DNA from: Bacteroidia bacterium
Lineage (GTDB): Bacteria > Bacteroidota > Bacteroidia > Bacteroidales > Prolixibacteraceae
Assembly (NCBI GenBank): GCA_026391655.1
Contig: JAPLDR010000017.1
Location: 36,915-100,914, forward strand
Length of the DNA: 64,000 nt
Direction: 5' to 3'
Part shown: positions 6,101 to 38,876 of the stretch, one piece after another
Position numbering within the stretch: position 1 is the stretch's first letter
How the letters are laid out: each line of letters opens with the position of its first letter
Notes under the pieces: model-generated
The model's input: only the letters and a program-made list of their open reading frames with translations
Told to the model about the DNA's origin: nothing
Database searches by the model: none
Made by a program: the position numbers and the translations under genes

Positions 6101-7308
6101 ACCTGCTGTCGAATGCATTCAAATTTACCGGGAAGGGTGGTAAAATATCAGTTAACCTGTCATTGGTTTTTGAATCGGATGAAAGTGAGTCGGTTGGCGA
6201 TTCCTCGGAGAAAAGATTGATCGAAATTACAGTGAAAGATACCGGAATCGGGATTGCAGATACGAATCTGGAAAAAATATTTATCCGTTTTTTCCAGGTC
6301 GACGATGGCGCCAAACAAACCGGAACCGGAATCGGGTTGGCTTTAACCAAAGAATTGGTCAAATTGCATAAAGGAAGTATTTCGGTACAAAGTAAACCGG
6401 GTAAAGGTTCGAAGTTTACTATTCACCTGCCATACGACGAAGTTTCCAGCAACCAACCTGTAGAAACTTTAAATGCGGAAAATTCAAACGAACAGGCAGT
6501 TAACCGGCACATTGAAGAATTTACGGGTGACACGATGCCGTCCGGTCGAAAAATTATGCTTTTGGTCGATGACAATTCGGATGTCAGGTATTTTATCAAG
6601 ACACATTTTAACTCAAATTATCAGGTATTAGAAGGTGAAAATGGGCTTGAAGGGTGGAACATAGCGCTGAAAACTATTCCGGATATCATCATTTGCGACG
6701 TGATGATGCCCGATATCGACGGCTTCGAATTTTGCCGTAAAATCAGGAAGGATGAACGAACCTCTCATATTCCGATCATCCTGGTCACTGCTCTCGGTTC
6801 ACGCGAACACGAGATTGAAGGATTGAGCTACGGTGCCGACGATTACATTACTAAACCTTTTGATCTGGTTATTCTACAGACTAAAGTTGAAAATATTCTG
6901 TCGGTCAGGCAATCGCTGAAACAAAAATACACAAGTGAGATGCTGCTTCAGCCGAAGAATATCATACTTAGCTCGCCAGACGAGCGGTTTCTGCAAAAAG
7001 CCATCGAAGTTGTAGAGAACAACATTTCGGATCCTGATCTCGACATCGAACGGTTTGCGGCTGAAATTGGTGTCAGCCGGATGCAGTTGTACCGTAAACT
7101 CGATGCCCTTACCGAAATGACTGTTAAAGAATTTGTCAGGAACATCCGATTAAAAAGGGCAGCCCAACTATTGGTTCAGAAAAAGCTAAATGTTTCGGAA
7201 GTAGCCTATGCTGTAGGCTTTAAAGATCTGTCGCATTTCCGTAAATGCTTTAAATTGGAGTTTGGAATGAGCGCTTCGGAGTATGTTGAAAAATACATCA
7301 CGCAATAA
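3199..7308 (+). CDS. Hybrid two-component system regulator (HTCS) of the pectin locus
   Basis: A 1369-residue single-protein two-component system. A signal anchor (about residues 22-41) is followed by a periplasmic double propeller made of Reg_prop repeats (recurring WIGT, WFGT, WVGT blades), then a Y_Y_Y domain near 705-785 and a membrane span near 798-820. In the cytoplasm there is a HisKA domain with His855 in SHEIRTP, a HATPase_c domain (NNLLSNAFKF; DTGIGI), a receiver with probable phospho-Asp1167 (CDVMMPDIDG), and an AraC-type double helix-turn-helix at about 1260-1366. Such proteins bind a specific oligosaccharide in the periplasm and activate the adjacent polysaccharide locus. Being first in the pectin cluster, it is the best candidate to bind the paired TTGGGAA sites at 7402, 19855 and 38877. 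All catalytic residues looked for are present. Confidence 0.95.
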   Translation: MIAEKFTKGDRKTFSINKCGNTVFLLLGLLFFLYASKSIGAEVVNNLNFDFYSQENGLSNNQIHCIHQDKKGWMWFGTSQGVCRFDGYKFTVFKNDPDDSTSLKGNLVRTIFEDRKGQLWFGTENGGLNKFNREKENFQQLFYSGDQPILKNATVTSINEDSSENLWVGTNAHLYLIENENKLSEIKPSNRNGFSEYFRVIQSDQTGRIWLGTNTGLYVYNLKDNKVQKISLPQNLLLNQEIWAIYRDDDAIFWIGTYASGLFTVNPVTLEARHVILDLENDRSQTVRAVSKDRNGKYWIGTRGGLYIYEKSTGATAFYYHDEREPKSLVNNSIQCISHDMKGDVWIGTRNGINFLIEERQNIQGFKSMPGDNRYLNSSEIYAFWVDPKGDIWAGTESGGINILNRTTGRFRYMLPQKDNPNSLSRNCIKALLDDGKNNIWIGNFLGGIDVMNLQTGVFKHYRNDPSNPSSLSDNRVWALLRDRNNDIWVGTSSGLDKFDPGTGSFTHYPNLVGNQQVNWLVEDTDHTIWIGADEIVLYDPENQRVTRIQESTRYMLHDSKNRFWLATPNRGIALYSKEKGIIKYYSEKNGLSNNQTLAILEDNEHFLWISTTNGLSKFDPESERFHNYSLKNGFQNNQFTYGGAYKTTEGELLFGGISGFNIFNPTKIKSGDYFPQIVLTDLKIFNKSVKIGDRKKDVLTKCISETEKIELQYDLNSITLEFASFDYANSLGIQYSYFLEGFDKDWNEPSISRSATYTNLDPGEYTFQVKMVSIDRKESNPGPVLKIVVLYPYWKTWWFRSLLLLAVSGLFYMLITFLLNKEKLKNDLRLERLNAKKLHELDMMKLRFYTNISHEIRTPLTLILGPLDKMRSNTIPENEMKGHIEVMHRNATQLHQLINQLLDFRKLETGNLKLALACGDMVSFLAEIVGSFDKYAEEKEIKLKFNSLKKEIITNFDADKLGKIINNLLSNAFKFTGKGGKISVNLSLVFESDESESVGDSSEKRLIEITVKDTGIGIADTNLEKIFIRFFQVDDGAKQTGTGIGLALTKELVKLHKGSISVQSKPGKGSKFTIHLPYDEVSSNQPVETLNAENSNEQAVNRHIEEFTGDTMPSGRKIMLLVDDNSDVRYFIKTHFNSNYQVLEGENGLEGWNIALKTIPDIIICDVMMPDIDGFEFCRKIRKDERTSHIPIILVTALGSREHEIEGLSYGADDYITKPFDLVILQTKVENILSVRQSLKQKYTSEMLLQPKNIILSSPDERFLQKAIEVVENNISDPDLDIERFAAEIGVSRMQLYRKLDALTEMTVKEFVRNIRLKRAAQLLVQKKLNVSEVAYAVGFKDLSHFRKCFKLEFGMSASEYVEKYITQ

Positions 7309-7401
7309 CTTTTTTGTATTTTGTTTACTTTTCCTTTGTGGTCTGATATACTGAGCATTATAATAAATCGCTTAGCACTTTGGTATTTCTGAACCCGCTT
7401 T

Positions 7402-7428
7402 TTGGGAATTTCAACCTCGTGTTGGGAA
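7402..7428 (+). promoter_or_regulatory. Paired TTGGGAA direct repeat, probable HTCS operator (site 1)
   Basis: TTGGGAA occurs at 7402-7408 and 7422-7428, 20 bp apart centre to centre, embedded in CCCGCTTTTTGGGAAT and GTTGGGAATTCC. The same arrangement recurs at 19855 and, with 22-bp spacing, at 38877. Direct repeats about two helical turns apart are what a dimeric AraC-family output domain would bind. Binding by the regulator encoded at 3199-7308 is inferred. Confidence 0.6.
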
Positions 7429-7480
7429 TTCCTGCTATCTTTCCTGATATTCTTCAGCAAATTTTTGATTTAGTTTGTTG

Positions 7481-7488
7481 TAGTTTTA
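7481..7488 (+). promoter_or_regulatory. Probable -7 promoter element (module 1)
   Basis: TAGTTTTA matches the Bacteroidota -7 consensus TAnnTTTG at 7 of 8 positions (the two n included). It lies 59 bp downstream of the second TTGGGAA and 35 bp upstream of the small peptide start. Both distances are identical in the second module (19934-19941). No canonical -33 TTTG is present at the usual distance, as expected for an activator-dependent promoter. Confidence 0.45.
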
Positions 7489-7515
7489 CACTACCATACT
7501 AGCGATTTATTATTC

Positions 7516-7620
7516 ATGGAAGACATCGTTAAAAAACTTAGAAGGGTTTCATTAAAAATTGTACTGATGACGATCTTACTGGCAATCATTCTAAGTTTTT
7601 TGATTATTATAAGTTTCTAA
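7516..7620 (+). CDS. Small basic single-span membrane peptide (34 aa), copy 1
   Basis: ATG at 7516, TAA at 7618-7620, encoding 34 residues: an acidic start, the basic stretch KKLRR, then a hydrophobic run of about 20 residues (IVLMTILLAIILSFLIII) ending in SF. A paralogue of equal length lies at 19969-20073. From codon 6 to the stop the two genes differ in 12 codons. Ten changes are synonymous and two conservative (Ala/Val, Ile/Leu), and even the stop codons differ (TAA/TGA). That pattern is expected of a selected protein, not of conserved DNA. It sits between the probable operator/promoter and the GH105-SusC-SusD genes, so it should be the first gene of that induced unit. I do not recognise the family. 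It may be a regulator or accessory of the transporter or sensor, but its function is unknown. Confidence 0.7.
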   Translation: MEDIVKKLRRVSLKIVLMTILLAIILSFLIIISF

Positions 7621-7671
7621 CGATAACCTGGTGTGACCGATTGCGATGTGTTTAACTGGCTATAATAACAA

Positions 7672-8871
7672 ATGCGAATGCAAAAACTTTGGATTCTCTT
7701 GTTTGGATTTCTGATTGTTTTCCAATCATGTCTGGCCCAGTCTCAAAAGAGACCAATCGGCGGGCTTGTAATGGCTGTGAAATTGGCTGATTCGGAGATA
7801 AAGCATTTTCCTGAACCCTGGACTGTTGACTTTAACCCCAAACCTGTATGGAACTACACCCAGGGCTTAATTGCCTCTGCTATGATCATGATATGGAAAG
7901 AAAACGGCAATGACTCATATTACAATTATGCGAGAACCTATGCCGATCATTTTATTAACGCCAACGGGAGTATTTCGGGATACAAAGCCGAAGATTATAA
8001 CATTGATGCTGTAAATTCCGGAAAGTTCCTTTTTGATGTGTACGAAAAAACCAAAGATGAACGTTACCTGAAAGCAATCAATCATTTACGTGATCAGCTT
8101 AAAACACAACCACGTACCTCTGAAGGCGGTTTCTGGCATAAGAAACGTTATCCTCATCAAATGTGGCTCGATGGCTTGTATATGGGGGCGCCTTTTTTGG
8201 CCCAATACGCTTTCGTTATGAAGGATGCTGCAATCTTCGATGATGTTGTGAAGCAATTTGTAATCGTTCACAAACACACCTATAATCCCAAAGTTGGGTT
8301 GAATTATCATGGCTGGGACGAAAGCAAAGAACAAAAGTGGGCCGATCCTAAAACGGGATGTTCTCCGAATTTCTGGGGCAGAGCGGAGGGCTGGTATGCT
8401 ATGGCTTTGGTCGATGTACTCGATTTTCTGCCGCTTGATCATCCCGGCCGTTCAAAACTTCTTGGAATATTGAATCAGGTAGCAATTGCCGTCAAAAAAT
8501 ATCAGGATCCGAAAACCGGACTTTGGTACCAGGTGCTTGATCAGGGCAGTCGTAAAGGAAATTACTTCGAAGCCACCGCTTCATCGATGTTTACCTACGC
8601 ATTGCTTAAGGGTTCCCGAAAAGGATATATTAGTGGTGATTACAAGGCAATCGCAATCAAAGCTTATAATGGAATCCTTAAAAATTTTATTCAGGATAAT
8701 GGTGATGGCACAATTAGTCTGACTAAATGCTGCGCTGTGGCTGGTCTTGGAGGAAACCCTTACCGGGATGGTTCTTATGAATACTATATTAAAGAAACGG
8801 TTCATGCTGATGATCCGAAAGGAGTTGGGCCGTTTATTATGGCTTGTTTGGAAATGAATGACTCAAAATAA
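7672..8871 (+). CDS. GH105 unsaturated rhamnogalacturonyl/galacturonyl hydrolase
   Basis: A 399-residue protein with the (alpha/alpha)6-barrel signature of GH105 (YteR/YesR type). It has an N-terminal secretion signal ending VFQSCLA, possibly lipoprotein-processed at Cys. It carries WNYTQGLIASAM, the central HQMWLDGLYMGAPF with Asp167 as probable general acid, FWGRAEGWYAMALVD, and GNYFEATASSMFTYAL. These enzymes hydrate and release the delta-4,5-unsaturated uronic acid from oligosaccharides made by pectin or rhamnogalacturonan lyases, normally in the periplasm. ATG at 7678 is an alternative start six bases downstream. The gene follows the small peptide and is followed 5 bp later by SusC, so it belongs to the first SusCD transcription unit. 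Confidence 0.9.
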   Translation: MRMQKLWILLFGFLIVFQSCLAQSQKRPIGGLVMAVKLADSEIKHFPEPWTVDFNPKPVWNYTQGLIASAMIMIWKENGNDSYYNYARTYADHFINANGSISGYKAEDYNIDAVNSGKFLFDVYEKTKDERYLKAINHLRDQLKTQPRTSEGGFWHKKRYPHQMWLDGLYMGAPFLAQYAFVMKDAAIFDDVVKQFVIVHKHTYNPKVGLNYHGWDESKEQKWADPKTGCSPNFWGRAEGWYAMALVDVLDFLPLDHPGRSKLLGILNQVAIAVKKYQDPKTGLWYQVLDQGSRKGNYFEATASSMFTYALLKGSRKGYISGDYKAIAIKAYNGILKNFIQDNGDGTISLTKCCAVAGLGGNPYRDGSYEYYIKETVHADDPKGVGPFIMACLEMNDSK

Positions 8872-8876
8872 ATCTA

Positions 8877-11800
8877 ATGAAAAAAAGTATGAATGATTTA
8901 AAAATTAAAATTGGAAATCTTTCAGGCCATCAAAGTTATGGCTTGAAAATCCGGATGGTTGTCATTCTCGCCTTATTGGCGACATTTGGAATGGCTCAGA
9001 ATGTTTTGGTTAAAGGGAAAGTAACCGAAGCAGGAACCGGAGTAACTATCCCGGCTGCTAACGTAGTGGTAAAGGGTACTACTATCGGAATAGCTACCGA
9101 CAATGATGGAAATTACAGCCTTACGGTACCTGCAAACGGGACGTTGGTGTTTTCTTTTCTTGGTTACAAACCGATCGAAGTACCGGTAGCCGGTAAAAAA
9201 GAAATCAACGTTTCCTTAACTGCCAATGCTGTTGAATTGGAAGAATTTGTAACTATTGGCTATGGCACCCAGCGCCGGACAGACTTGACCGGTGCAGTAG
9301 GATCTGTATCAGGTAAAGAGTTAGAGAAAAATCCGGTCGTAAGTGTTGCCCAGGCACTCACAGGGAAAATTGCCGGTGTACAGAGTACAACAACCGATGG
9401 TTCGCCCGATGCTGAATATGTGATCAGGGTACGCGGAGGGGGTTCTGTAACCCAGGATAACTCCCCGCTTTTTATTGTGGATGGTTTCCCGGTGAATACA
9501 ATCAGCAATATTCCTCCTTCTGACGTCGAAAACGTTGATGTACTGAAAGATGCTGCCTCTTCTGCTATTTATGGTGCACGTGGTGCCAATGGTGTTATTA
9601 TCATCACCACAAAAAGTGCAAAAGCCGGAAAAACTACAATTTCTTATAATTACTATCTTCAGGCCAAAACAATGGCAAAAAAACTTGACGTGCTTTCGCC
9701 CTACGAATTTGTACTTGCACAATACGAATATGCTTCTTTGCGTGGCGGTACCGATTTGTCCAATTTCAATACTAATTTTGGCGTTTACGATGATTTGGAA
9801 CTTTATAAATACCAAAAAGGCACCGATTGGCAGGATGAACTTTGGGGACGAAACATCTTCTCAAAATTCCATAACCTGAGTATTATGGGAGGAAATGAAA
9901 AAACCAAATTTACGCTAAGCGGAACCTACAACAGCGATGAAGGATTACTGGTTGGATCGGGCTTTACGCGATTTGCCCTCAATTTCAAACTGAACCACGA
10001 AATATCTAAAAAACTGCAGCTTGATTTATCCGCGCGTTTTTCGGATACAAAAGTAGATGGTGCCGGAACTGCTGGTGCAGCAAACCTTCGGGTAACAGAT
10101 GGTTTAACAGCCCGCCCCGTAAACGGACTGCTTGATGTGCTTGATCTTGACCCTAATCAAGCCGCCGAAGACTATGCTACCTTTTCCAGCTCGCTTATTA
10201 ATCCAAAACAATTGGCTGCCCAGGACTGGCGTAATCGTAAAACCCAGGCGCTGAACGTCAATGTCGGTCTCACATGGAAAATTATTAAAGACTTGTCTTT
10301 CAGATCAGAAGTTGGTTACGATAAATCATTTGAAGACCTCAAGCGCTATTATGGACCACTTACAACAACATCAAAAAATGAGGGTGGAAATCTACCACTG
10401 GGTGAGCTGACAACCACCACATCACCACGTTACAGAGTGGCCAATACCCTTACATACAACTTTAAACCGGGGCAAAAACATGAATTAAACCTTATGGCAG
10501 GTCAGGAAATCATTTCAGGGAACAGTGTTCAGTACTTTCAGCGGGCAAAATATTTTTCAGAAACACTTTCCCCTGAAAAAATGTTTGCCAACATGGCGTT
10601 GGGTACTGTCGACCGAATCTCGACCAATGTAGGCACAGATGATAAACTGGCTTCCTTTTTCGGACGTGCTATTTATCAGTACGATAAGCGCTACCTGGCA
10701 ACTTTTACGATTCGTGCCGACGGTTCCAGTAAATTTGCACCGGGAAACCGCTGGGGTTTCTTCCCCGCCGCTGCACTGGGTTGGAGAATTTCGGAAGAAG
10801 AGTTTATGAAAGGTAAAACTTCCTTTTCGAACCTGAAGCTGCGTGTCAGCGTAGGCGAGGCAGGGAATAACCGAATTGGAAGTGATTTGTGGAAACGATC
10901 ATATGCTATTAGTAATACGCGCACTTATGGGTTAGGCGATGTGGCCAACCCTTATTATGCACCAGCCTCGAGCTTGCTTGTTAACCCCGATCTGAAGTGG
11001 GAAACTACTATCACGCGAAATGCCGGACTCGATTTTGGCCTTTTCCATAACAAATTATCTGGAACATTAGATCTTTATTGGAATACGACCAAAGACCTCC
11101 TTGTTGAATCGGATATCCCTTCGTACCTCGGTTATTCGAAACAGATGCGTAATATAGGACAGACCTCCAACAAGGGAGCTGAACTTACACTGAATGGTCA
11201 TATTATTGAGAAAAAAGATTTCTCGTTATCTGCCTCATTTAACATTGGTATCAATAAATCGAATATCGACGAATTGGATGGCGTTAACGAAAAGACCTTT
11301 TCCTCAAACTGGTCCAGTACTGATCTGAAAAACCAGGATGATTACCGGTTAAGGGTGGGTCAAACCGTAGGTTTGATGTACGGATATGTAACCGATGGTT
11401 TTTATTCAGTTGACGATTTTTCATCTTACGATGCAGTTAAAAATCTTTATGTCAGAAAAGATGGTGTTCCTTTTACAGGATTATACGGCGGAACAATTGG
11501 AATAAGACCGGGAACGCTGAAACTTAAAGATATATCGGGACCAAATGGTGTTCCGGACGGTGTGATTGACGGACTTGACCGTACGGTAATCGGAAATGCA
11601 ACCCCGAAAAACACAGGTGGATTTGGTCTTGAAATCAGATACAAACAGTTCGACCTGACTGCAACCTTCAACTGGGTATATGGTAACGATATTTACAATG
11701 CGAATAAAATTGCTGCGAGTCAAAACTATCGTACTACTTATGGTAATATGCTTAACACCATGAACTACGCCAGCCGATTCAAATATATCAATGATGCCGG

Positions 11801-12173
11801 AACTGTGGTAACTGATCTTGAGCAGTTGCGGGCAATAAACCATAATGCAAACATATGGTCGCCGTTCTCATTCGGAAGTGCTGTAACCGTAATCCATTCC
11901 TGGGCTATTGAAGATGGTTCTTTTCTTCGCCTCAATAACCTCACACTGGGATATACACTTCCTAAACGATTGTCGCAGAAAATAGGAATGTCAAACCTCC
12001 GTTTTTATGCAACCGGCACTAATCTTTGGATATGGACCAACTATACGGGATACGATCCCGAAGTAAGTTCGACTGTCAGAAACAGTTCTTACAATGCACT
12101 TACTCCCGGCGTTGATTTTTCAGCTTATCCGAAAAGCCGTTCAATTACTGTTGGCGTTAATGTAACATTTTAA
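8877..12173 (+). CDS. SusC-family TonB-dependent outer-membrane transporter 1
   Basis: 1098 residues. A rather long N-terminal segment precedes the signal sequence (VVILALLATFGMA). Then come a carboxypeptidase-D-like domain (about residues 43-118: KGKVTEAGTGVTIPAANVV, TDNDGNYSLTVP), a TonB-box-like ELEEFVTIGYG, the plug domain (GKIAGVQSTT; RVRGGGSVTQDNSPLFIVDG; VLKDAASSAIYGARGANGV) and a beta-barrel ending in an aromatic VNVTF. SusC proteins import oligosaccharides delivered by the lipoprotein SusD partner, which follows 29 bp downstream. The enzymes around it point to pectin or rhamnogalacturonan oligosaccharides. The length is typical and no disruption was seen, unlike the second SusC of this locus. 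Confidence 0.95.
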   Translation: MKKSMNDLKIKIGNLSGHQSYGLKIRMVVILALLATFGMAQNVLVKGKVTEAGTGVTIPAANVVVKGTTIGIATDNDGNYSLTVPANGTLVFSFLGYKPIEVPVAGKKEINVSLTANAVELEEFVTIGYGTQRRTDLTGAVGSVSGKELEKNPVVSVAQALTGKIAGVQSTTTDGSPDAEYVIRVRGGGSVTQDNSPLFIVDGFPVNTISNIPPSDVENVDVLKDAASSAIYGARGANGVIIITTKSAKAGKTTISYNYYLQAKTMAKKLDVLSPYEFVLAQYEYASLRGGTDLSNFNTNFGVYDDLELYKYQKGTDWQDELWGRNIFSKFHNLSIMGGNEKTKFTLSGTYNSDEGLLVGSGFTRFALNFKLNHEISKKLQLDLSARFSDTKVDGAGTAGAANLRVTDGLTARPVNGLLDVLDLDPNQAAEDYATFSSSLINPKQLAAQDWRNRKTQALNVNVGLTWKIIKDLSFRSEVGYDKSFEDLKRYYGPLTTTSKNEGGNLPLGELTTTTSPRYRVANTLTYNFKPGQKHELNLMAGQEIISGNSVQYFQRAKYFSETLSPEKMFANMALGTVDRISTNVGTDDKLASFFGRAIYQYDKRYLATFTIRADGSSKFAPGNRWGFFPAAALGWRISEEEFMKGKTSFSNLKLRVSVGEAGNNRIGSDLWKRSYAISNTRTYGLGDVANPYYAPASSLLVNPDLKWETTITRNAGLDFGLFHNKLSGTLDLYWNTTKDLLVESDIPSYLGYSKQMRNIGQTSNKGAELTLNGHIIEKKDFSLSASFNIGINKSNIDELDGVNEKTFSSNWSSTDLKNQDDYRLRVGQTVGLMYGYVTDGFYSVDDFSSYDAVKNLYVRKDGVPFTGLYGGTIGIRPGTLKLKDISGPNGVPDGVIDGLDRTVIGNATPKNTGGFGLEIRYKQFDLTATFNWVYGNDIYNANKIAASQNYRTTYGNMLNTMNYASRFKYINDAGTVVTDLEQLRAINHNANIWSPFSFGSAVTVIHSWAIEDGSFLRLNNLTLGYTLPKRLSQKIGMSNLRFYATGTNLWIWTNYTGYDPEVSSTVRNSSYNALTPGVDFSAYPKSRSITVGVNVTF

Positions 12174-12202
12174 ATGCGTGTTAATTAAAAAAATATAGCA
12201 AT

Positions 12203-14038
12203 ATGAAAAAAGTAATAATATATACGCTGGCTGCTGTGGCAATACTGGTTACTGCGTGTAACAAATTTCTCACAACTGATTCGCCATCAGCTTTTACAGA
12301 TACTTATATCTTCGCGAACGAAACCGATGCCCAAAAGGCCGTGATGAGCGTTTATGCGCTGTTTAATCAGGATGCGTTTACGTCGAGAATTTCTAACGTT
12401 TTCACAGGAAATTCCGATATCGAATGTGGCGCCCCAAGTGCTGCTCCTGATAACTCCCGCAGGGATGTCTGGTCGCTTGAGGCCAAATTATCACCTTCGT
12501 TTGTTGATTTTAAAACCATCTGGAACAATACCTATAATGCGATCAATCGCGCCAACGAGTGTATCGAGGGCATTAAGGCAAGTCCTATATCCCAGAATCC
12601 TGGAATGAAACAGTTGTTGGGTGAGGCCGTTACACTTCGGGCCTACTGGTACTATATTCTGCAAAATTTCTTTGCCGATGTGCCTTATAAAACTACTGGT
12701 ACTAAAGCTGGTGACGAATTTTATCTTCCACGGATGGACCGCGATACAATTCTCACTAATTCGATAAACGATTTGATTAAAATTGAACCCGATATGATGT
12801 GGGCCGATCAGTTGACAGGTGGTATCGAACGGATCAACCGCGAATTTGTAATCGGGATGATTTCGCGCCTGGCGCTTACCCGTGCCGGCTATTCAATGCG
12901 CGTCGACGGAACCATGCAACGCAAAAGCGATTATGCCGATTATTATAAAATTGCCCGCGATTATGCCAAAAAATTGATGGATTTAAAAGATCGGCCGCTG
13001 AATCCCAATTTCATGACAATATTTATGAATGAATGTAAAAATGTTACTCCGGTTAACGATGATGTACTTTACGAAGTCGCCTTCCAGGCAGGATTTGGTG
13101 ATGTGGCGTGGAATCATGGTATTCGTGTTGATGCCGGAACCCATTCTTATGGTGCCGGATCGGCTTACTTGTGTTTACCAATCACCTATATGTACTCGTT
13201 CGACAAAGCTGATAAAAGATTTCCTGTTACCTGCTCTATCATTTATTACGACAAAGACCTGAAACAGCAGCCAACCGGGCCAATGGGCATCTCACCGGGA
13301 AAATGGTGCCGCCTTTGGCTAACCACTCCTCCCGGAGCCTCATCGGCAAAAGGAACTGGTATAAACTGGCCGATGATGCGTTATTCGGATGTTTTATTGA
13401 TGTTTGCCGAAGCAGATAACGAACTTAACGGACCCACGGCTGATGCAAAAGCTGCTCTTCAGAGGGTTCGCCAAAGAGCTTTCGATTCATCGGATTGGCC
13501 TGTAAAAGTAACTAATTACATTAGCACTGTTTCGGCAAGTAAAGCAAGTTTTTTTAATGCAATTGTTGACGAACGTGCATGGGAGTTTGGTGGTGAATGT
13601 ATGCGTAAATTCGACCTCATCCGGTGGAACCTGTATGGTAAGAAAATTGCTGATGTACGGAGTAAACTTACCCAAATGGGGATTGACGCCAATAAAGGAA
13701 CGGGCATTTACTCAACGCTTCCAAACTATCTTTATTACAAAGTAAATGCTGACTTTACCCTTAGTTTTTATGATTTCTGGAGTAAACCGGCAGTTGCACC
13801 ACCTGTAAAAGACTATCCAAGTATTGGTGACAATCCTACTGGTTATTCCCGGACAAGTTGGGCGCTTTCGATGATCAACACAACCACGCTGGAGCCTGCC
13901 ACTTATGTGACATACATGTATAGAGGCTACACCGATAATTCGGGAGTGGCTCCTGCACCTTATGTTTTGCCCATTCAAAGCGAAATTATTATCAGCAGTT
14001 TGGGTATTCTTACAAATGACGGTTACGGTTTAAAATAA
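12203..14038 (+). CDS. SusD-family surface glycan-binding lipoprotein 1
   Basis: 611 residues, beginning with a lipoprotein signal (AVAILVTACNKF, lipid-modified Cys about residue 19). The N-terminal SusD-like helical repeats are followed by the RagB/SusD C-terminal domain with RYSDVLLMFAEADNEL and VDERAWEFGGECMRKFDLIRW, both characteristic. The protein caps the SusC barrel at the cell surface and presents oligosaccharide to it. It is longer than the usual 500-550 residues, as often seen for SusD proteins of pectin loci. It lies directly after SusC (29-bp gap) and 12 bp before the next lipoprotein gene. Confidence 0.94.
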   Translation: MKKVIIYTLAAVAILVTACNKFLTTDSPSAFTDTYIFANETDAQKAVMSVYALFNQDAFTSRISNVFTGNSDIECGAPSAAPDNSRRDVWSLEAKLSPSFVDFKTIWNNTYNAINRANECIEGIKASPISQNPGMKQLLGEAVTLRAYWYYILQNFFADVPYKTTGTKAGDEFYLPRMDRDTILTNSINDLIKIEPDMMWADQLTGGIERINREFVIGMISRLALTRAGYSMRVDGTMQRKSDYADYYKIARDYAKKLMDLKDRPLNPNFMTIFMNECKNVTPVNDDVLYEVAFQAGFGDVAWNHGIRVDAGTHSYGAGSAYLCLPITYMYSFDKADKRFPVTCSIIYYDKDLKQQPTGPMGISPGKWCRLWLTTPPGASSAKGTGINWPMMRYSDVLLMFAEADNELNGPTADAKAALQRVRQRAFDSSDWPVKVTNYISTVSASKASFFNAIVDERAWEFGGECMRKFDLIRWNLYGKKIADVRSKLTQMGIDANKGTGIYSTLPNYLYYKVNADFTLSFYDFWSKPAVAPPVKDYPSIGDNPTGYSRTSWALSMINTTTLEPATYVTYMYRGYTDNSGVAPAPYVLPIQSEIIISSLGILTNDGYGLK

Positions 14039-14050
14039 AAAGATAACATC

Positions 14051-15655
14051 ATGAATAGAAAATATTTAAATTTTAAAACAATCCTGGCAACCCTGTTTTT
14101 GGGGATTATCCTTGTGGTAAGTTGTCAAAAAGAAGAAACGCTTCAGGAAGCACCACGCCTTTTCAGACCAGTAGTCAGTGGCGACCTTCTCGGAGCAGGT
14201 AACTGGCTGGGTGCTGAATGGACAAGAGTTAAAGGAGCGACCTCTTATACTGCTGAAATCAGTCTCGACACGTTTAAAACTGTAGTAAAATCTGTGGCGG
14301 TAGATACCAATATAGTAGTTTTCCAAAACCTCGAGTGGCTTACACTTTATCAGATTCATGTACGGGCTAATGCTGCTGTTGAAACCAAAAACTCGGGATT
14401 CTCTCTTCTCGGAGCACGAAAAACTGAGAAATTTCCTTCCATTATGGCAACTCCGACCTCGCAGGAAATTTTGGATAAAGCGGTTCTGATGCATTGGACG
14501 AATACAGGTGCTGCTGTAACCAACATTAAAGTTACACTCAAAACAGGAGGAACCCTCGTGAAAGATGTTCCTCTGGTTGCCGCAGACATCACCAACCAGT
14601 ATAAGGTAATCAGCGGTTTGACTCCCCTGACCACTTATGTTGTTACACTTTACAGCGGCACTACAGTTCGGGGTTACGAGACGATCACTACTGTTGCACA
14701 AATAATTACGGGAACTAATATTGTTGATCTTTCGCAGGGAACCGATGCAGATGTACTTACAAGTGCCTACTTTACCTCATTAACAAGTGGCACATTGATC
14801 ATCCTGAAACGCGGTATGACTTACAATGTCACAGGAACAGTCAATTTCGACAAACCGGTTTCATTTGTCAGCGAAGTAACTTTCTTCGCACCACCTGCAA
14901 AACTTAACCTGGTTGGTAACTTTAACTTTGCTTCCAGCAGCAATGTCTCTGAAATATCATTCAAAACGGTTGACCTTATCGGTTCAGTAGCAGATGGATA
15001 TGGCAGCCGTTATGTTTTCAATATCAATGTTGTCAGCACAATTGCAAAAATCACATTTGAGGATTGCAAGATTAAAGCATTACGTGGTATTCTTCGAGCT
15101 CAGGCTGGTCCGCAAATCAATACAGTTTCTTTCAATAAGTGTCTGATCGACAGCATTTCGAACTATGGAGTAGTAAACTGTGACAATGCTGCTTCAGGTA
15201 TTCAGAATGTTATTCTGACCAATTCAACAGTATCAGCTACGGAAAAATTAATGACGAGCAAATCGAATCTGACTTCGCTTCTGATTAATAACTGTACCTT
15301 CTATGCTGTGCCAATGAGTGCAAACTACTTTCTGGATTATAATACATTCACTGTCAGTGGTGGCGTTACTATTAATAACAGCATCTTTAGTGTTGGAAAA
15401 CCTTCGGCAGCTACTCCACCAGTATATTTGGTTAATGGCTTCCGGCCAGCTACCGTCAGCTTTACGACAGCCGGAAATTTCAAAACCTCTGACCTCGCGT
15501 GGGCTGGAACCGGAACTACAGCGCTTCCCGGTCTTACTGATTATACCGGGGTTGCAACTGCCTTGTTTAAAGATCCGGTTAATGATGATTTTACCATTAT
15601 AGACAGCAAATTTGCCGGCAAGAGTACGGCAGGGGACCCCAGGTGGAGACCTTAA
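14051..15655 (+). CDS. SusE-position surface lipoprotein with Fn3-like and beta-helix domains (DUF4957/DUF5123 type)
   Basis: 534 residues with a lipoprotein signal (ILVVSCQKEE). Residues about 30-215 contain two beta-sandwich, fibronectin-III-like segments (WTRVKGATSYTAEISLD; HWTNTGAAVTNIKVTL). Residues about 225-530 have the repetitive Asn/Ser-rich pattern of a right-handed beta-helix (VSEISFKTVDLIG, ITFEDCKIKAL, NTVSFNKCLIDSIS, NVILTNSTVSA). Proteins of this layout occupy the SusE/F place after SusD in pectin loci and are thought to be surface glycan-binding proteins; the DUF names are from memory. No lyase or esterase catalytic motif was found. It is the last gene before the terminator at 15692. 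Confidence 0.75.
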   Translation: MNRKYLNFKTILATLFLGIILVVSCQKEETLQEAPRLFRPVVSGDLLGAGNWLGAEWTRVKGATSYTAEISLDTFKTVVKSVAVDTNIVVFQNLEWLTLYQIHVRANAAVETKNSGFSLLGARKTEKFPSIMATPTSQEILDKAVLMHWTNTGAAVTNIKVTLKTGGTLVKDVPLVAADITNQYKVISGLTPLTTYVVTLYSGTTVRGYETITTVAQIITGTNIVDLSQGTDADVLTSAYFTSLTSGTLIILKRGMTYNVTGTVNFDKPVSFVSEVTFFAPPAKLNLVGNFNFASSSNVSEISFKTVDLIGSVADGYGSRYVFNINVVSTIAKITFEDCKIKALRGILRAQAGPQINTVSFNKCLIDSISNYGVVNCDNAASGIQNVILTNSTVSATEKLMTSKSNLTSLLINNCTFYAVPMSANYFLDYNTFTVSGGVTINNSIFSVGKPSAATPPVYLVNGFRPATVSFTTAGNFKTSDLAWAGTGTTALPGLTDYTGVATALFKDPVNDDFTIIDSKFAGKSTAGDPRWRP

Positions 15656-15691
15656 TAGTTTTTAAGTATCTGTAATTTAGAATAATACAAT

Positions 15692-15730
15692 AAACCTGAC
15701 AGGTGCATTTTACCTGTCAGGTTTGTTTTT
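15692..15730 (+). terminator. Rho-independent terminator after the first SusCD unit
   Basis: A perfect 13-bp stem (AAACCTGACAGGT at 15692-15704 with its complement at 15712-15724), 7-nt loop, followed by a T-rich tract. It lies 37 bp after the SusE-position gene and separates this unit from the lyase operon. Confidence 0.85.
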
Positions 15731-15835
15731 ATTTTAATTGAAATATAGAGATTCAGATGGTTGTAGAATAAAACTCTATAGTCTTGTAAGCCTAATATTC
15801 ACTCTGCCGACAGTAACAGTTAATACAGAAATGTA

Positions 15836-15843
15836 TAATTTTG
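15836..15843 (+). promoter_or_regulatory. -7 promoter element of the PL10-GH78-CE12 unit
   Basis: TAATTTTG matches the Bacteroidota consensus TAnnTTTG exactly, 18 bp before the pectate lyase start and after the terminator at 15692. No TTGGGAA pair lies upstream, so this unit may be constitutive or use another activator. Confidence 0.5.
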
Positions 15844-15861
15844 GAAATTCAATAAACGAAA

Positions 15862-17067
15862 ATGGCAAAGATTCAATCTATTATCAGGAAACTGGTGATC
15901 ATTCTGTTGGCTGTGTTTTTACACAACAGCATGTTTGCACAAGCTAAGGAACAAACCAAGGTATTTGCTCCGATCAGCATGGAACCTTTTGGTGACAGTA
16001 TGCGCCACTGGTATGGCATTCATGATGATGGGAATATCATTCAACCAAAATTCAATCAGCCCAAATATAAAGAAACGAAAATCACAGAGATTGCAGACAA
16101 CATTCTGATTTATCAGCGTAATAACGGCGGGTGGCCAAAAAACTACGATATGATGGCCATCTTAACAAATACGCAAATAGATAGTTTAGTGAAAACCAAA
16201 AATAAGTTTCACACCACATTCGATAATTCGACGACCTATACCCATATTGAATATCTGACTCAGGTTTATACACTTACTCATATCGAAAAATACAAAGAAG
16301 CTTGTCTTAAAGGAATCAGTTTTGTAATATCTGCCCAATTCCCGAATGGAGGCTGGCCTCAATATTTCCCTTTGGAAGATAATTACAGCCGTAGAATCAC
16401 CTACAATGATGGCGCCTACATTGGAATTATGAAAATGCTGAAAAAAATTGTTGACAACAATCCAGATTATTCGTTTATAGGAAATGAGGTCCGGGGAAAC
16501 GTTAAGCTGGCTTTTGAAAAAGGAATGAACTGTATCATCAAAACACAGATTGTCGATAAAGGCAAACTCACTGCGTGGTGCCAGCAACACAATGAAATTA
16601 ACCTTCAGCCTGCCTGGGCAAGAGCTTTTGAACCACCAAGTATCTGTAATGGAGAGAGTTCAGATATTGTTTTATTTCTGATGAAAATTGACCATCCGGA
16701 CGCAAGAATCATCAAATCAATCCAAAGTGCTGTGAAATGGTTTGATGATTCAAAGATTTATCATACGAAAGTTAATATAGTTCCGGCTCCACCCGAAAAG
16801 TCGCAATGGAAAACAACTTATTACGACAGGGTAGTGGTAACTGATTCTCTCGCTCCCCCAATCTGGACCCGCTATTATGAACTCGGAACTGAGAAACCTT
16901 TATTCTGCGATCGTAACAATAAGTTTCTCTTTTCTTTGGCTGAAGTAAGCCGTGAGCGACGCAGCGGATATGGCTGGTACACTTATTCACCTCAGGAAGT
17001 GCTGGATAAATACCCCGAATGGCAGAAAAAATGGGCGCCTGGGAAAAATGTTTTGAAACCGGAATAA
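15862..17067 (+). CDS. Pectate lyase, PL10 family
   Basis: 401 residues with a cleavable signal (about residues 10-27, ending SMFAQA). It shows the PL10 (alpha/alpha)3-toroid signatures: RNNGGWPKNYDM, TTFDNSTTYTHIEYL, FPNGGWPQYFPL, YNDGAYIGIMKML, LTAWCQQHNEINLQPAWARAFEPPS. PL10 enzymes cleave unesterified homogalacturonan by calcium-dependent beta-elimination, leaving unsaturated ends for the GH105. It starts a three-gene unit with the GH78-type protein (39 bp downstream) and CE12. A second, longer PL10-like protein lies at 26559. Confidence 0.88.
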   Translation: MAKIQSIIRKLVIILLAVFLHNSMFAQAKEQTKVFAPISMEPFGDSMRHWYGIHDDGNIIQPKFNQPKYKETKITEIADNILIYQRNNGGWPKNYDMMAILTNTQIDSLVKTKNKFHTTFDNSTTYTHIEYLTQVYTLTHIEKYKEACLKGISFVISAQFPNGGWPQYFPLEDNYSRRITYNDGAYIGIMKMLKKIVDNNPDYSFIGNEVRGNVKLAFEKGMNCIIKTQIVDKGKLTAWCQQHNEINLQPAWARAFEPPSICNGESSDIVLFLMKIDHPDARIIKSIQSAVKWFDDSKIYHTKVNIVPAPPEKSQWKTTYYDRVVVTDSLAPPIWTRYYELGTEKPLFCDRNNKFLFSLAEVSRERRSGYGWYTYSPQEVLDKYPEWQKKWAPGKNVLKPE

Positions 17068-17106
17068 TTAAGTTTGAAATATTAATTCGTTTTAATTTCT
17101 GCCAAG

Positions 17107-18894
17107 ATGAAATTTCTGATACTTATTGCTGTTGTTCTCCTGAATTTGGAACTGAAAGCTCAGGTTCCTCCGGTTTTTGGGGTTGATCTTCAATCTAAAA
17201 TTCAAAAAGACGAGCTTTCCAGATATTATCTGGCGCCACAGCGTATTGTCTGGCAATCGGATAACTCCGGGAAAAAGATAGTACATCCGGAGATTTTGCT
17301 GAACAAGGGTGATGGGCAGGCCTGGTTTGGTATAAAGAAAGAAAATGTTTGTTCAATCACCAATGAAACAGGTGATTCCACGGGCCTGGTTCTCGATTTC
17401 GGGAAAGAAATACAAGGGGGTATCCAGATCACAACTTCCTCGAGTAATAGGGTAACCCGAAAAGTGCGGATTCGTTTTGGCGAGTCAGTCAGCGAAACAA
17501 TGAGCCGTGTGATTGGCGATGGCACAACCGGTAAAGAGGGCGGGGCTACCAACCACCATGCCATGCGTGATTTTGTGGTCGTATTACCTGGTTACGGAAC
17601 GCTCGAAGTCGGGAAATCGGGGTTCCGTTTCGTCCGGATCGATCTGGTTGATCCCGATTGTTCTATTGCCATCAAGGAAATCAGGGCGGTGGCAACCCTT
17701 CGCGATATTCCTTATCTCGGTTCATTCTCCTGCAACGATGAACGGTTGAACCAGATTTGGCTGACTGGCGCCTACACTGTCCATCTGAACATGCAGGATT
17801 ATTTGTGGGACGGCATCAAACGCGACCACATGGTGTGGATCGGGGACATGCACCCGGAAGTGATGACGATAAATATGGTTTTCGGCAATCAGAATATTGT
17901 CCCGAAAAGTCTGGATTTTGTTCGCGACCACACTCCGCTTCCTGCCTGGATGAACGGCATAAGTGCGTATTCAATGTGGTGGGTGGTGATGCAATACGAC
18001 TGGTATTACTATCAAGGCAACTTAGAATATTTGAAACAGCAAAAGAGCTATCTGCTGGCTTTGCTTGATTTGCTGACAACCAAAGTCGATTCGTCAGGAA
18101 AAGAAAACCTTAATGGCTTCGGCATGCGCTTTCTCGACTGGCCTTCGAGCGGGAACAAACAAGGTGTTCATGCCGGCCTTCAGGCGCTCATGGTGATGAC
18201 ATTTGAAAAGGGTGCCGAATTGTGTTCCTTCCTGAATGAAGATCAGAAAGCATTAGTATATAGACAACTGTCTGCAAAAATGAAAGGATATATCCCCGAT
18301 CCGAACGGGTGCAAACAGGCTGCTTCGCTGATGTCGCTTGCCGGAATTATTTCTCCGGTGAAAGCGAATGACGAAGTTATTTCGGTTGGAGGGGCAAAGA
18401 ATTTTTCAACATTCTATGGCTATTACATGCTTCAGGCACAAGCCAAAGCAGGTGCTTATCAGGCAGCCATTGATAATATCCGCCAGTTTTGGGGCGCAAT
18501 GCTCGATTTGGGCGCTACCACATTCTGGGAAGATTTTAACCTCGACTGGACGATTAACGCGGCACGGATTGATGAGGTGGTGCCGCCCGGCAAAAAAGAT
18601 ATCCACCGCGATTACGGTGCCTATAGTTACATCGGTCTTCGCCACAGTTTATGCCATGGCTGGTCGTCAGGACCTACTACATGGTTGTCGCAATATGTTC
18701 TGGGGATTCAGGTCGCAGAGCCCGGTTGTAAAACGCTCCGTATAGAACCACATCTGGGTGATCTGAAATGGGCAAAAGGAACATTTCCGACCCCATTCGG
18801 ACTAGTTACAGTTTCGCACCTAAAGAATTCAGATGGTACGATCAAATCAGTTATTGATGCGCCAAAAGGAGTTCATATCATTCAATCAAAATAA
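17107..18894 (+). CDS. Alpha-L-rhamnosidase-like glycoside hydrolase (GH78 type)
   Basis: 595 residues with a signal peptide (about 1-18, ending LKAQV). A beta-sandwich N-terminal part (LVLDFGKEIQGGIQI, RIRFGESVSE) precedes an (alpha/alpha)6 barrel with LWDGIKRDHMVWIGDMHPE near residue 233. This is the GH78 segment equivalent to D-x3-R-D-x3-W-x-GD, which supplies the general acid and rhamnose-binding residues. A C-terminal all-beta domain ends in ATTFWEDF through PGCKTLRIEPHLGDL. It is shorter than classical GH78 proteins of 800-1000 residues because it lacks the extra carbohydrate-binding modules. Its expected substrate is rhamnosyl ends of rhamnogalacturonan-I oligosaccharides in the periplasm. 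Its stop shares one base with the next start (TAATG). Confidence 0.78.
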   Translation: MKFLILIAVVLLNLELKAQVPPVFGVDLQSKIQKDELSRYYLAPQRIVWQSDNSGKKIVHPEILLNKGDGQAWFGIKKENVCSITNETGDSTGLVLDFGKEIQGGIQITTSSSNRVTRKVRIRFGESVSETMSRVIGDGTTGKEGGATNHHAMRDFVVVLPGYGTLEVGKSGFRFVRIDLVDPDCSIAIKEIRAVATLRDIPYLGSFSCNDERLNQIWLTGAYTVHLNMQDYLWDGIKRDHMVWIGDMHPEVMTINMVFGNQNIVPKSLDFVRDHTPLPAWMNGISAYSMWWVVMQYDWYYYQGNLEYLKQQKSYLLALLDLLTTKVDSSGKENLNGFGMRFLDWPSSGNKQGVHAGLQALMVMTFEKGAELCSFLNEDQKALVYRQLSAKMKGYIPDPNGCKQAASLMSLAGIISPVKANDEVISVGGAKNFSTFYGYYMLQAQAKAGAYQAAIDNIRQFWGAMLDLGATTFWEDFNLDWTINAARIDEVVPPGKKDIHRDYGAYSYIGLRHSLCHGWSSGPTTWLSQYVLGIQVAEPGCKTLRIEPHLGDLKWAKGTFPTPFGLVTVSHLKNSDGTIKSVIDAPKGVHIIQSK

Positions 18895-19721
18895 TGAAAT
18901 CTTTTTATATAAAAATGAAAATGAAAAAAATTGTAGTTGTATTGTTCGTATTGATGACAGTCACCTGTGGTGTTAACGGTAAAAGAAAGTCTGACGCCAA
19001 AAAACCGGTAAAAGTATATTTGATTGGAGACTCTACCGTTGCCGATTATACCCTCGATGATAACTACCAAACCACAAAGTACCCGATTACTGGTTGGGGT
19101 CAGGTTCTTCAACCTTTTTTGAGTAAAGATAGTCTGTCTAAAGTGGCTGGTCTAATCAAGGCTGACAGTGTCAAAGTTGACGACCGGGCCAAAGGAGGAC
19201 GCAGTACCCGGACTTTTTTTCAGGAAGGTCGCTGGCGTACAATTTATGACGAATTGCAACCGGGTGATCTTGTGCTCATCCAATTTGGACATAACGATGC
19301 CGCCGAAAGTAAACCTGAACGCTACGTAAATATTGAAGGGTACAAGGAATTTTTACGTCTTTATGTTTTTCAAGCCCGTCAAAAGGGTGGTATTCCGGTT
19401 TTACTAACACCGGTAAATTGCAATTATCCCTGGGAAGACGGTGTGCTAAAGAATGTACATGGTGAATATCCGCAAGCGATGAAGGACATTGCAGCTGAAA
19501 TGAACGTTTTTCTTATTGATCTGACCCAAATTTCATGCGACTTTTTTACCTTGAAGGGAAAGGACTTTGTCACCGAAAAGTATTTTATGAATTTACCAGC
19601 CGGCGTTTATACAGCATATCCCGATGGGCAAAAGGACAATACTCATTTTCAGCCCGAAGGAGCAAAAGCGGTCGCCCAACTGATTTTTAACGGATTGAAG
19701 TCCATAAAGCTAAAACAATAA
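18894..19721 (+). CDS. Rhamnogalacturonan acetylesterase, CE12 (SGNH hydrolase)
   Basis: 275 residues. The secretion signal is best read from the internal ATG at 18915 (MKMKKIVVVLFVLMTVTCG), so the listed start may be 21 bases long. SGNH blocks are clear: IGDSTVADY with catalytic Ser47, DRAKGGRSTRTF (oxyanion Gly), LIQFGHNDA (Asn), and DNTHFQPEGA with the Asp/His pair. Residues PITGWGQVL and the overall length fit CE12. Members remove acetyl groups from galacturonate of rhamnogalacturonan-I, opening the backbone to lyases and hydrolases. It overlaps the rhamnosidase by one base and ends the unit; no hairpin terminator was seen after it. Confidence 0.87.
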   Translation: MKSFYIKMKMKKIVVVLFVLMTVTCGVNGKRKSDAKKPVKVYLIGDSTVADYTLDDNYQTTKYPITGWGQVLQPFLSKDSLSKVAGLIKADSVKVDDRAKGGRSTRTFFQEGRWRTIYDELQPGDLVLIQFGHNDAAESKPERYVNIEGYKEFLRLYVFQARQKGGIPVLLTPVNCNYPWEDGVLKNVHGEYPQAMKDIAAEMNVFLIDLTQISCDFFTLKGKDFVTEKYFMNLPAGVYTAYPDGQKDNTHFQPEGAKAVAQLIFNGLKSIKLKQ

Positions 19722-19854
19722 TTTGTCTGATACTTACAATCCTTCTTCCAATTAGCTACTGATAGTTCCCTTATTCAATAGGTTTTATTATATATGTGAT
19801 ATACTGCGTATTGAAGTTTATCTCCCGTATTCTTGTTATTTCCATACCCGCTTT

Positions 19855-19881
19855 TTGGGAATATTAACCTCCGGTTGGGAA
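19855..19881 (+). promoter_or_regulatory. Paired TTGGGAA direct repeat, probable HTCS operator (site 2)
   Basis: TTGGGAA at 19855-19861 and 19875-19881 (20-bp spacing), in the same flanks as site 1 (CCCGCTTTTTGGGAAT, AACCTC, GTTGGGAATTCC). A further shared block, TGATATACTG, lies 58 bp upstream of the first half-site in both modules (7344 and 19797). Confidence 0.6.
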
Positions 19882-19933
19882 TTCCAGCCCCCTTTCTGAT
19901 ACGCATTCATTGCCAATTTGATCCCCTTTAACG

Positions 19934-19941
19934 TATTTTTA
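19934..19941 (+). promoter_or_regulatory. Probable -7 promoter element (module 2)
   Basis: TATTTTTA, 7 of 8 positions of TAnnTTTG, exactly 59 bp after the second TTGGG and 35 bp before the peptide start, as in module 1. Confidence 0.45.
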
Positions 19942-19968
19942 CATTTCCAAACTAAAAAAATACCACCA

Positions 19969-20073
19969 ATGGACAATACAATAAAAAAACTAAGAAGAGT
20001 TTCGCTAAAAATTGTTCTGATGACGATCTTGCTCGTGATCATCCTGAGTTTTTTGATTATTCTGTCTTTCTGA
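19969..20073 (+). CDS. Small basic single-span membrane peptide (34 aa), copy 2
   Basis: ATG at 19969, TGA at 20071-20073. The core KKLRRVSLKIVLMTILL is identical in both copies, followed by a hydrophobic stretch ending LSFLIILSF. Only the first five residues and two later positions differ from the copy at 7516, while ten further codons differ silently. Upstream, operator, promoter-like element and start keep the spacing of copy 1. Downstream, a short block (CTATAA and an ATG about 37-50 bp after the stop) is also similar to copy 1, where that ATG is the GH105 start; here that ATG is followed at once by a stop. The next real gene is the second SusC, 173 bp on. Function unknown. Confidence 0.7.
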   Translation: MDNTIKKLRRVSLKIVLMTILLVIILSFLIILSF

Positions 20074-23200: not shown

Positions 23201-23593
23201 ACGAATTACCAAATTCAGAGCGGGAATCTGGTAAAGTTGACCACACCCGACCAGTTGAATGCCGCCAACACAAATGCGACCGTACCGTCAACCTTCCTGC
23301 AACAAGGCTATGTTTCCGATATCGGTATCGAAGATGGTTCATACCTACGTCTCAATACGGTGACCTTGGGCTATACCTTGCCAAAACAGGTGTTAAGCAA
23401 GATAAAGATAAGCAACATGCGCATCTATGGGTCCATCTACAATGCATTTACCCTGACGGGTTACTCAGGACTTGACCCTGATGTCAATACGAGTCAAAAC
23501 GTAAATAGCTCGCGTTATCCGACTCCCGGGCTTGATTGGGGAACCTATCCCCGTGCCCGTCAGTTTGTGATAGGCTTAAATGTTACTTTCTAA
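20247..23593 (+). pseudogene. SusC-family transporter 2, frameshifted by a 14-bp tandem duplication
   Basis: Two adjacent frames together make one SusC. The first (20247-21908) has the signal peptide, carboxypeptidase-D-like domain, TonB-box-like EIEEVVAIGYG, plug (RVRGGGSISQSNDPLILIDG) and part of the barrel, then ends FLVGQEITNWK. The second (about 21910-23593) carries the rest of the barrel to the terminal GLNVTF. At the junction GGAAATAACCAACT is present twice in tandem (21887-21900, 21901-21914). Deleting one copy gives QEITNSGGTSMRISGQ in one frame and a protein of about 1110 residues, normal for SusC. All other parts look intact, so the lesion is recent, reversible by slippage, or an assembly error. 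As written, no functional barrel can form from one frame. Confidence 0.88.
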
Positions 23594-38710: not shown

Positions 38711-38876
38711 GGTATATGGATGAGAAATATCTGTTAATTTATGAACGAATACTTAATTCAGTGACTACTGGGGTTAAATTTGCATGTCACTGGTAACAAG
38801 ACTTAAAACAGTAACATGGACTTCTTGTTCCGGCAAAGGGAAGATTAACATCGTATTTTGGGAGGAATAACCCTTT

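Follow-up and report, generated by a model that had tools for sequence, protein, structure and literature searches.

At the head of each of two pectin-degradation operons in an uncultured Bacteroidota genome lies a gene for a membrane peptide of 34 residues. Much of the glycan use of Bacteroidota is under the control of hybrid two-component systems (HTCS), which current models depict with one protein per system. Computational analysis places the peptide gene behind an operator and in first position, finds it under selection, and assigns it to a family that is linked with one HTCS clade, of which the peptide is very probably a component. The window (the whole stretch of DNA analysed, 64 kb) contains an HTCS-controlled polysaccharide utilisation locus, in which the HTCS gene adjoins SusC/SusD and glycan enzymes (Pfam). 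Its features are as follows.

3199..7308, + strand: HTCS regulator of 1369 aa (Pfam)
7344..7353, + strand: TGATATACTG, module 1; common to both modules and otherwise present only in a few near relatives
7393..7450, + strand: putative HTCS operator, module 1; half-sites CCCGCTTTTTGGGAA, CCTCGTGTTGGGAA, and TTTCCTGATAT about 20 bp apart
7481..7488, + strand: -7 promoter element TAGTTTTA, module 1; consensus TAnnTTTG, ATG 35 bp downstream
7516..7620, + strand: 34-aa membrane peptide gene, copy 1; MEDIVKKLRRVSLKIVLMTILLAIILSFLIIISF, stop TAA
7672..8871, + strand: GH88/GH105 family hydrolase (Pfam), 51 bp past the peptide stop
8877..12173, + strand: SusC-like TonB-dependent transporter, unit 1 (Pfam)
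12203..14038, + strand: SusD-like protein, unit 1 (Pfam)
19797..19806, + strand: TGATATACTG, module 2
19846..19903, + strand: putative HTCS operator, module 2; three half-sites (PWM)
19934..19941, + strand: -7 promoter element TATTTTTA, module 2; consensus TAnnTTTG
19969..20073, + strand: 34-aa membrane peptide gene, copy 2; MDNTIKKLRRVSLKIVLMTILLVIILSFLIILSF, stop TGA
20247..23593, + strand: SusC-like transporter, unit 2, in two frames (20247-21908 and 21929-23593)
23632..25683, + strand: SusD-like protein, unit 2
38856..38905, + strand: third operator-like repeat cluster, with TTGGG at 38858, 38877, and 38899

The regulator consists of Reg_prop repeats, Y_Y_Y, HisKA, HATPase, REC, and an AraC-type HTH (Pfam), with one TM at about residues 798-821. 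The two frames of the unit 2 SusC result from a 14-bp tandem duplication near 21889-21916.

Each peptide gene is the last part of a module of 277 bp (7344-7620 and 19797-20073). An earlier sequence-only reading of this DNA had claimed identical spacing in the two modules and no indel over their length, and the comparison bears this out. The modules align without indels at 68% identity (62% upstream of the ATG, 78% in the ORF, and 54% in the linker), while the next-best ungapped match to module 1 within the window reaches 39%. In both, TGATATACTG lies at offset 0, TTGGG at 58 and 78, TAGTTTTA or TATTTTTA at 137, and the ATG at 172, with the stop codon extending to 277. As a general part of the module, TGATATACTG was rejected, since exact matches occur only in the two window modules and at two further loci (L105 and L330).

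The TTGGG repeats, putative parts of the operator, are spaced by 20 bp in the two modules as well as in relatives. A third half-site, additional to those of the sequence-only reading, follows them as CTGATAT (7444-7450) in module 1 and CTGATAC (19897-19903) in module 2. HTCS operators described for Bacteroides are direct repeats, on average 21 bp apart, located before SusCD/pectinase operons (PMC3878776), and the repeat structure of these putative sites matches such motifs. The PWM for the operator was built partly from both window sites and their relatives. The third repeat cluster, which the earlier reading did not contain, precedes a pectinesterase and has no peptide ORF. The -7 boxes follow a described promoter consensus, TAnnTTTG (PMC7366714). 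The peptide gene comes after operator and -7 box and probably opens the mRNA as its first ORF.

From codon 6 on, the two copies differ at 15 nucleotides, which fall into exactly the ten synonymous codons and two conservative changes (A/V and I/L) counted before. When 15 changes were placed at random, an average of 10.2 amino-acid changes resulted, and two or fewer occurred in 0 of 20,000 draws. For this pair dS is 1.07 and dN 0.12 (dN/dS about 0.11), pN is below pS in all 231 of the 231 pairs formed by 22 peptide ORFs, and entropy across the ORFs peaks at codon position 3. Selection together with genome distribution rules out a chance hydrophobic ORF. The peptide ORF is almost certainly a real translated gene, and the earlier claim of a selected, undescribed small membrane protein is upheld by purifying selection, homologues, and near-constant length.

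It is fairly improbable that the ORF acts as a translated leader, which would couple or attenuate downstream translation or transcription while the peptide matters little beyond being made. Such a role would suit an ORF that is probably the first of its mRNA, 51 bp ahead of GH105, and long 5′ UTRs of Bacteroides thetaiotaomicron are reported to contain sORFs reminiscent of leader peptides (PMC7366714). In the close clade, the RNA of the ORF also exceeds synonymous shuffles in self-complementarity (mean z -1.4 to -1.5, compared with -0.3 for control genes). However, 28 distant members do not show this signal (z -0.3) and no consensus fold was found, for which reasons a conserved RNA element in place of the peptide was likewise rejected. 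Moreover, the peptide has kept its amino-acid sequence, its length, and the heptad stripe while synonymous sites are near saturation, and purifying selection is strong across the whole ORF, unlike in a weakly constrained attenuator peptide. The ORF has no run of regulatory codons, no intrinsic terminator-like site lies between peptide and next gene, and the downstream folding energy is ordinary.

Divergent relatives of 33-36 residues open SusCD/GH105/GH43 operons under HTCS control in about 52 of 140 Prolixibacteraceae genomes and likewise in three or more further families of Bacteroidales. The length stays within this range while identity to the window peptide drops to about 20%, and the peptide stands at the operon head in all 20 of 20 freshly cut loci. 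Homologues outside the window, which the sequence-only reading had proposed as a check, were found with a synonymous excess; the gene directly follows an HTCS operator and precedes SusC or GH105. Of the grounds for refutation which that reading had named, those that can be computed, a lack of homologues or equal rates at synonymous and nonsynonymous sites, were not observed. A sample of 203 genomes from the class yielded no peptide beyond the order. In the order-wide searches, hits outside the family fell mostly within long ORFs and are chance TM matches. No family in Pfam, NCBIfam, or PDB covers the peptide (42 members searched against Pfam/NCBIfam), and a word search of open-licence literature, which can miss one, returned no earlier description.

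Among the 140 Prolixibacteraceae genomes, the peptide occurs in 51 of the 56 with an HTCS of the clade vs. 1 of the 84 without (Fisher 4e-31, a nominal p value as the genomes are related). The single exception, G081, has the peptide without a clade HTCS, but HTCS fragments adjoin the peptide; it is also the only one with a peptide among the 32 Prolixibacteraceae genomes with only other HTCS types. On the HTCS tree, 28 of 28 peptide-less loci lie across one 99% branch; many of the peptide-bearing loci came from the peptide search, and those found through the HTCS only, which are fewer, show the same split. Two loci (L106 and L118) have the HTCS away from the operon, and there the peptide stays with operator and operon. 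The association is with the regulator and not with the kind of operon. Since the peptide is near-confined to genomes with one HTCS branch, it is probably part of the sensing circuit. Three clade loci (L330, L332, and L335) retain operator and SusC/GH105 and have lost the peptide, so the circuit does not strictly need it. Any other role peculiar to these PULs would be compatible with the clade link as well.

Bacteroidales HTCS loci at greater distance (below 46% identity), among them those of Bacteroides and Phocaeicola MAGs, have no peptide; about 50 HTCS-downstream regions in this range rule it out as a general HTCS feature. The earlier description of the peptide as the first product of HTCS-induced SusCD units is thus to be narrowed to one HTCS clade, in Prolixibacteraceae and a few sister families, and fails for HTCS units generally. 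Behind two of the distant HTCS genes (loci L279 and L328), unrelated-looking basic TM small ORFs were observed.

AF2 models the peptide as a single helix (residues 2-33, pLDDT 91). Members of the family are built of a basic N-terminus and one TM helix and end right after the TM, without a periplasmic part; insertion into the membrane is predicted to be N-in/C-out. I15, L22, and L29 are near-invariant and, with L8, are spaced exactly seven apart. Read post hoc, this heptad stripe suggests a specific helix interface, while the helical periodicity of conservation over all peptide positions is not significant (P 0.15). Type I toxins and antimicrobial peptides typically have this size and combine basic with hydrophobic residues, and a similar hydrophobic frame is readable on the antisense strand in a few genomes. 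Even so, it is very improbable that the peptide is an antimicrobial or the small hydrophobic toxin in a type I toxin-antitoxin pair, given the fixed place behind the HTCS operator at operon heads and the co-inheritance with the HTCS clade. The antisense frame is accounted for by self-complementary K-rich and F-rich codons, and an antisense ORF was rejected as a candidate.

As the leading mechanism, by analogy with known small regulators, we propose that an HTCS-induced inner-membrane peptide feeds back on its HTCS sensor, a reading for which the case is evenly balanced. A single-pass inner-membrane peptide of 33-36 residues would be the product of the co-inherited family. A pectic glycan would activate the HTCS, which would then bind the tandem operator and turn the promoter on. 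From a transcript start predicted about 20-25 nt before the ATG, the peptide would be the first product of each operon. Inserted as predicted, the single helix may pack against the HTCS dimer in the membrane, with its basic N-terminal helix beside the juxtamembrane linker of the HTCS, and would tune signalling as a feedback regulator. The sign of this effect is presumed: negative feedback, as exerted by MgrB on PhoQ, seems somewhat likelier than positive feedback. In its divergence the peptide tracks the HTCS as a whole (r 0.74). Correlation with the TM segment of the HTCS adds no more than 0.20, and therefore co-evolution points to no contact site.

An unlikely alternative to feedback is an accessory subunit of the KdpF/AcrZ/CydX kind that leaves the HTCS alone and stabilises or tunes an inner-membrane complex on which these PULs depend, such as a sugar importer, the TonB-ExbBD that energises SusC, or a complex for export to the envelope. 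Like kdpF in kdpFABC, the peptide gene comes first in a TCS-controlled transport operon, and it usually precedes SusC or GH105 plus SusC. The next gene is sometimes GH43 or one for an unnamed protein, however, which does not favour a link with SusC as such. Furthermore, the peptide tracks one HTCS clade, whereas SusC and TonB are general, and SusC/SusD are outer-membrane proteins, whereas the peptide ends after its membrane helix. Other HTCS-linked roles, for example positioning the HTCS near operon products or shielding it from proteolysis, share the association evidence for feedback and have nothing specific in their favour; they are improbable.

A conserved small membrane protein that is produced first at HTCS-driven promoters and passed on with one HTCS clade would add a missing HTCS component, offer a handle on sensor tuning or reset, and, if feedback on the sensor is correct, be the first small-protein regulator of an HTCS. 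The libraries searched contain no curated model of the family, although more than a third of the Prolixibacteraceae genomes sampled carry it, and the finding supplies loci for testing, with single-contig genomes among them. Tentatively, and short of an even balance, we suggest that this HTCS clade has a dedicated 34-residue membrane partner, encoded first in the operons under its control, which would relay the state of the operon to the sensor by contact between helices within the membrane and would have evolved independently of MgrB and SafA.

SafA/B1500, the EvgS-PhoQ connector of E. coli, is a small membrane protein; one sensor controls its gene, and the protein acts on a sensor kinase. It joins two different systems, is larger than the window peptide, and no sequence relation between the two was found. 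KdpF (about 30 aa) is, like the window peptide, tiny, hydrophobic, and encoded by the first gene of a transport operon; it is TCS-induced and binds KdpD in two-hybrid assays (PMC3618439). Its primary role is supposed to be in the KdpABC complex, and Kdp involves neither an HTCS nor an outer-membrane transporter. No peptide member matches the KdpF model, and the operon is SusCD/GH105 rather than kdpABC. HTCS PULs of Bacteroides share the direct-repeat HTCS operator with the window; unlike for the window operons, a small membrane peptide is not mentioned in the sections of that account considered here (Ravcheev et al. 2013, PMC3878776). MgrB, the 47-aa PhoQ inhibitor of Enterobacteriaceae, is a small single-pass inner-membrane protein from the sensor's own regulon, and its TM region and N-terminal lysines act on PhoQ (PMC8404706). 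None of the 42 peptide members matched the MgrB family in Pfam or NCBIfam. To function, MgrB requires its periplasmic part, whereas the window peptide stops after the TM and, unlike MgrB, heads transport/enzyme operons. In common with MgrB-type regulators, the peptide is a small single-TM protein with a basic N-terminus, cytosolic by predicted insertion (sequence and AF2); the conserved parts are this N-terminus and the TM. The gene lies behind the putative operator associated with the HTCS clade and may be expressed from the sensor's regulon.

The window is a pectin locus with two units, in which the peptide open reading frame (ORF) is preceded in each module by an operator and a -7 box:

3199-7308, gene for the hybrid two-component system sensor/regulator (HTCS)
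7344-7620, module 1, with peptide ORF copy 1 at 7516-7620
19797-20073, module 2, with peptide ORF copy 2 at 19969-20073
Unit 1, gene order: HTCS (3199-7308), module 1, GH105, SusC, SusD, DUF5123 protein, pectate lyase, rhamnosidase-like protein, then GDSL esterase
Unit 2, gene order: module 2, SusC, SusD, lectin-fold protein, pectate lyase, GH43, GH28, others

The module coordinates, spacing and peptide lengths of the sequence-only reading were correct in every detail checked (277 bp, 34 residues). Spacing is identical base by base over the 277 bp and the modules share 68% identity; the next-best ungapped placement of module 1 within the window reaches 39%. Each ORF encodes 34 residues, of which 6-22 are common to both peptides. 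Across codons 6-34, the copies differ by ten synonymous and two conservative changes, whereas randomly placed changes would give about ten amino-acid changes. The selected small protein proposed from the sequence was borne out, and its basis is now a family of some 50 loci. Several genomes, like the window's, hold two peptide genes at the heads of two operons: G183 (loci L172, L238), G045 (L234, L178), G073 (L176/L341), and G065 (L231, L340).

A single-peptide query found relatives in 14/199 genomes, its own genome counted, and a 15-row profile gave about two dozen convincing relatives within Prolixibacteraceae. Weaker matches were judged by genomic place rather than score; in their loci, a peptide of 34-36 residues is encoded between the HTCS gene and the gene for SusC, GH105, or an unnamed protein. 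Locus L121, missed by the first profile, has a peptide of exactly 34 residues in the usual place. A 29-row profile matched 55 of the 140 family genomes, 52 of which were accepted on a short open frame and place, and the peptide stood at the operon head in 20/20 further loci. At L221, L225, L228, and L231, the ORF was called longer, from an upstream ATG. Outside the family, members occur in three other Bacteroidales families (genomes G183 and G399 in one, G360, and G274); a class-wide sample of 203 genomes gave none besides the window's own. No family in Pfam, NCBIfam, or PDB fits the peptide, and two PDB matches cover the N-terminal 12 residues only, in entries named sc-apCC, which we take to be designed coiled coils. 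In three loci, the protein encoded directly after the peptide had no Pfam match at 1e-4:

L182, 1481-2887
L183, 4039-5448, minus strand
L238, 3953-4918, minus strand

A typical member reads M-[EDKS]-x-I-x-[KR]-x-L-[KR]-[KR]-x-[SN]-x-x-I, followed by ~20 hydrophobic residues to the C-terminus, and the AF2 model is one helix. The positive-inside rule predicts an N-in/C-out topology. Besides M1, the most conserved positions (weighted, 42 rows) are I15 (96%), L22 (93%), and L29 (89%), then L8 (76%); read post hoc, L8/I15/L22/L29 form a stripe at an exact spacing of seven.

The peptide is tied to a regulator clade, not to any downstream gene. When the 140 family genomes were searched by HTCS, not by peptide, HTCS genes fell into two groups, with ≥50% or ≤44% identity to the window's HTCS. 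The peptide was present in 51/56 genomes with a ≥50%-identity HTCS versus 1/84 without, and in that single exception HTCS fragments adjoin the peptide. Across Bacteroidales, regions downstream of HTCS genes below 46% identity were without the peptide. Thus, a peptide serving as general first product of HTCS units, as first read from the sequence, was too wide a claim. On a FastTree tree of 77 HTCS proteins, many of whose peptide-positive members were retrieved through the peptide, all 28 peptide-less ones lie across one 99% branch. Three clade loci with the operator and SusC or GH105 lack the peptide (L330, L335, L332) and are losses. At L106 and L118, the HTCS is located elsewhere and the peptide remains with the target operon. 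Basic single-TM small ORFs also occur behind non-clade HTCS genes, at L279 346-453 (35 codons, MNRPRAFKKHFRLNPVEFIFILILVALTLFIIYII) and, before SusC, at L328 (37 codons, MKHAPGIRNRKRISVTEILLMVMFVAVVTLLIVALLR); the same device may have evolved independently in these cases.

Among named relatives of the window's HTCS that share 70-85% identity with it, most come from MAGs assigned to Prolixibacteraceae (or Bacteroidota, Mariniphaga, Tangfeifania), which makes Prolixibacteraceae the most likely family of the window's genome. A second HTCS in the window's genome (G000:C115:1846-4296), whose gene runs off the contig end, is 76% identical to that of the window over residues 14-831. The unit 2 SusC is in two frames at 21880-21930 through a 14-bp tandem duplication (GGAAATAACCAACT twice), which either arose by mutation recently or reflects misassembly of the draft genome.

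The putative operator has three half-sites ~20 bp apart, in relatives CCCGCTTTTTGGGAA, CCYGCTnnTGGKAMG, and CCTTCCTGATATG, and the first TTTGGG lies 111-116 bp upstream of the ATG in most of 50 upstream regions. Published HTCS motifs are direct repeats with an average spacing of 21 bp (PMC3878776). Motif form and co-occurrence suggest that the HTCS binds this operator. Three TTGGG repeats 19-22 bp apart, with no peptide ORF, lie upstream of a pectinesterase gene at 38856-38905, possibly a third target of the window's HTCS. The TAnnTTTG-like box 35 bp upstream of the ATG matches the -7 consensus of Bacteroidota (PMC7366714); the 5′ UTR would therefore be only ~20-25 nt. No terminator-like site was found between the peptide and the next gene.

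Only in the close clade does the self-complementarity of the ORF RNA rise above that of synonymously shuffled sequences. Close-clade ORFs, including 7516-7620, are quasi-palindromic (register i+j=100) beyond the protein's needs, so that a similar peptide can be read from the antisense strand; distant family members examined lack this. A leader role for the ORF is a less likely alternative to a function of the peptide itself.

Once the HTCS is activated, the peptide is probably its first product. Mirror-tree analysis gave r 0.74 between peptide and whole HTCS, the extra term for the HTCS TM being small (0.20). A KdpF-like role is less likely than feedback on the sensor. Feedback on the HTCS, through a contact and with a sign of effect that we infer, would be the best guess, at roughly even chances, since the peptide is clade-tied, probably made first, and built like known small sensor-kinase regulators. 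We found no description in the open-licence literature of a small-membrane-protein component in HTCS systems. The build of the peptide resembles that of known small regulators of sensor kinases, and these peptides make up a new protein family whose type is already familiar from other systems, the small membrane proteins of two-component regulons.
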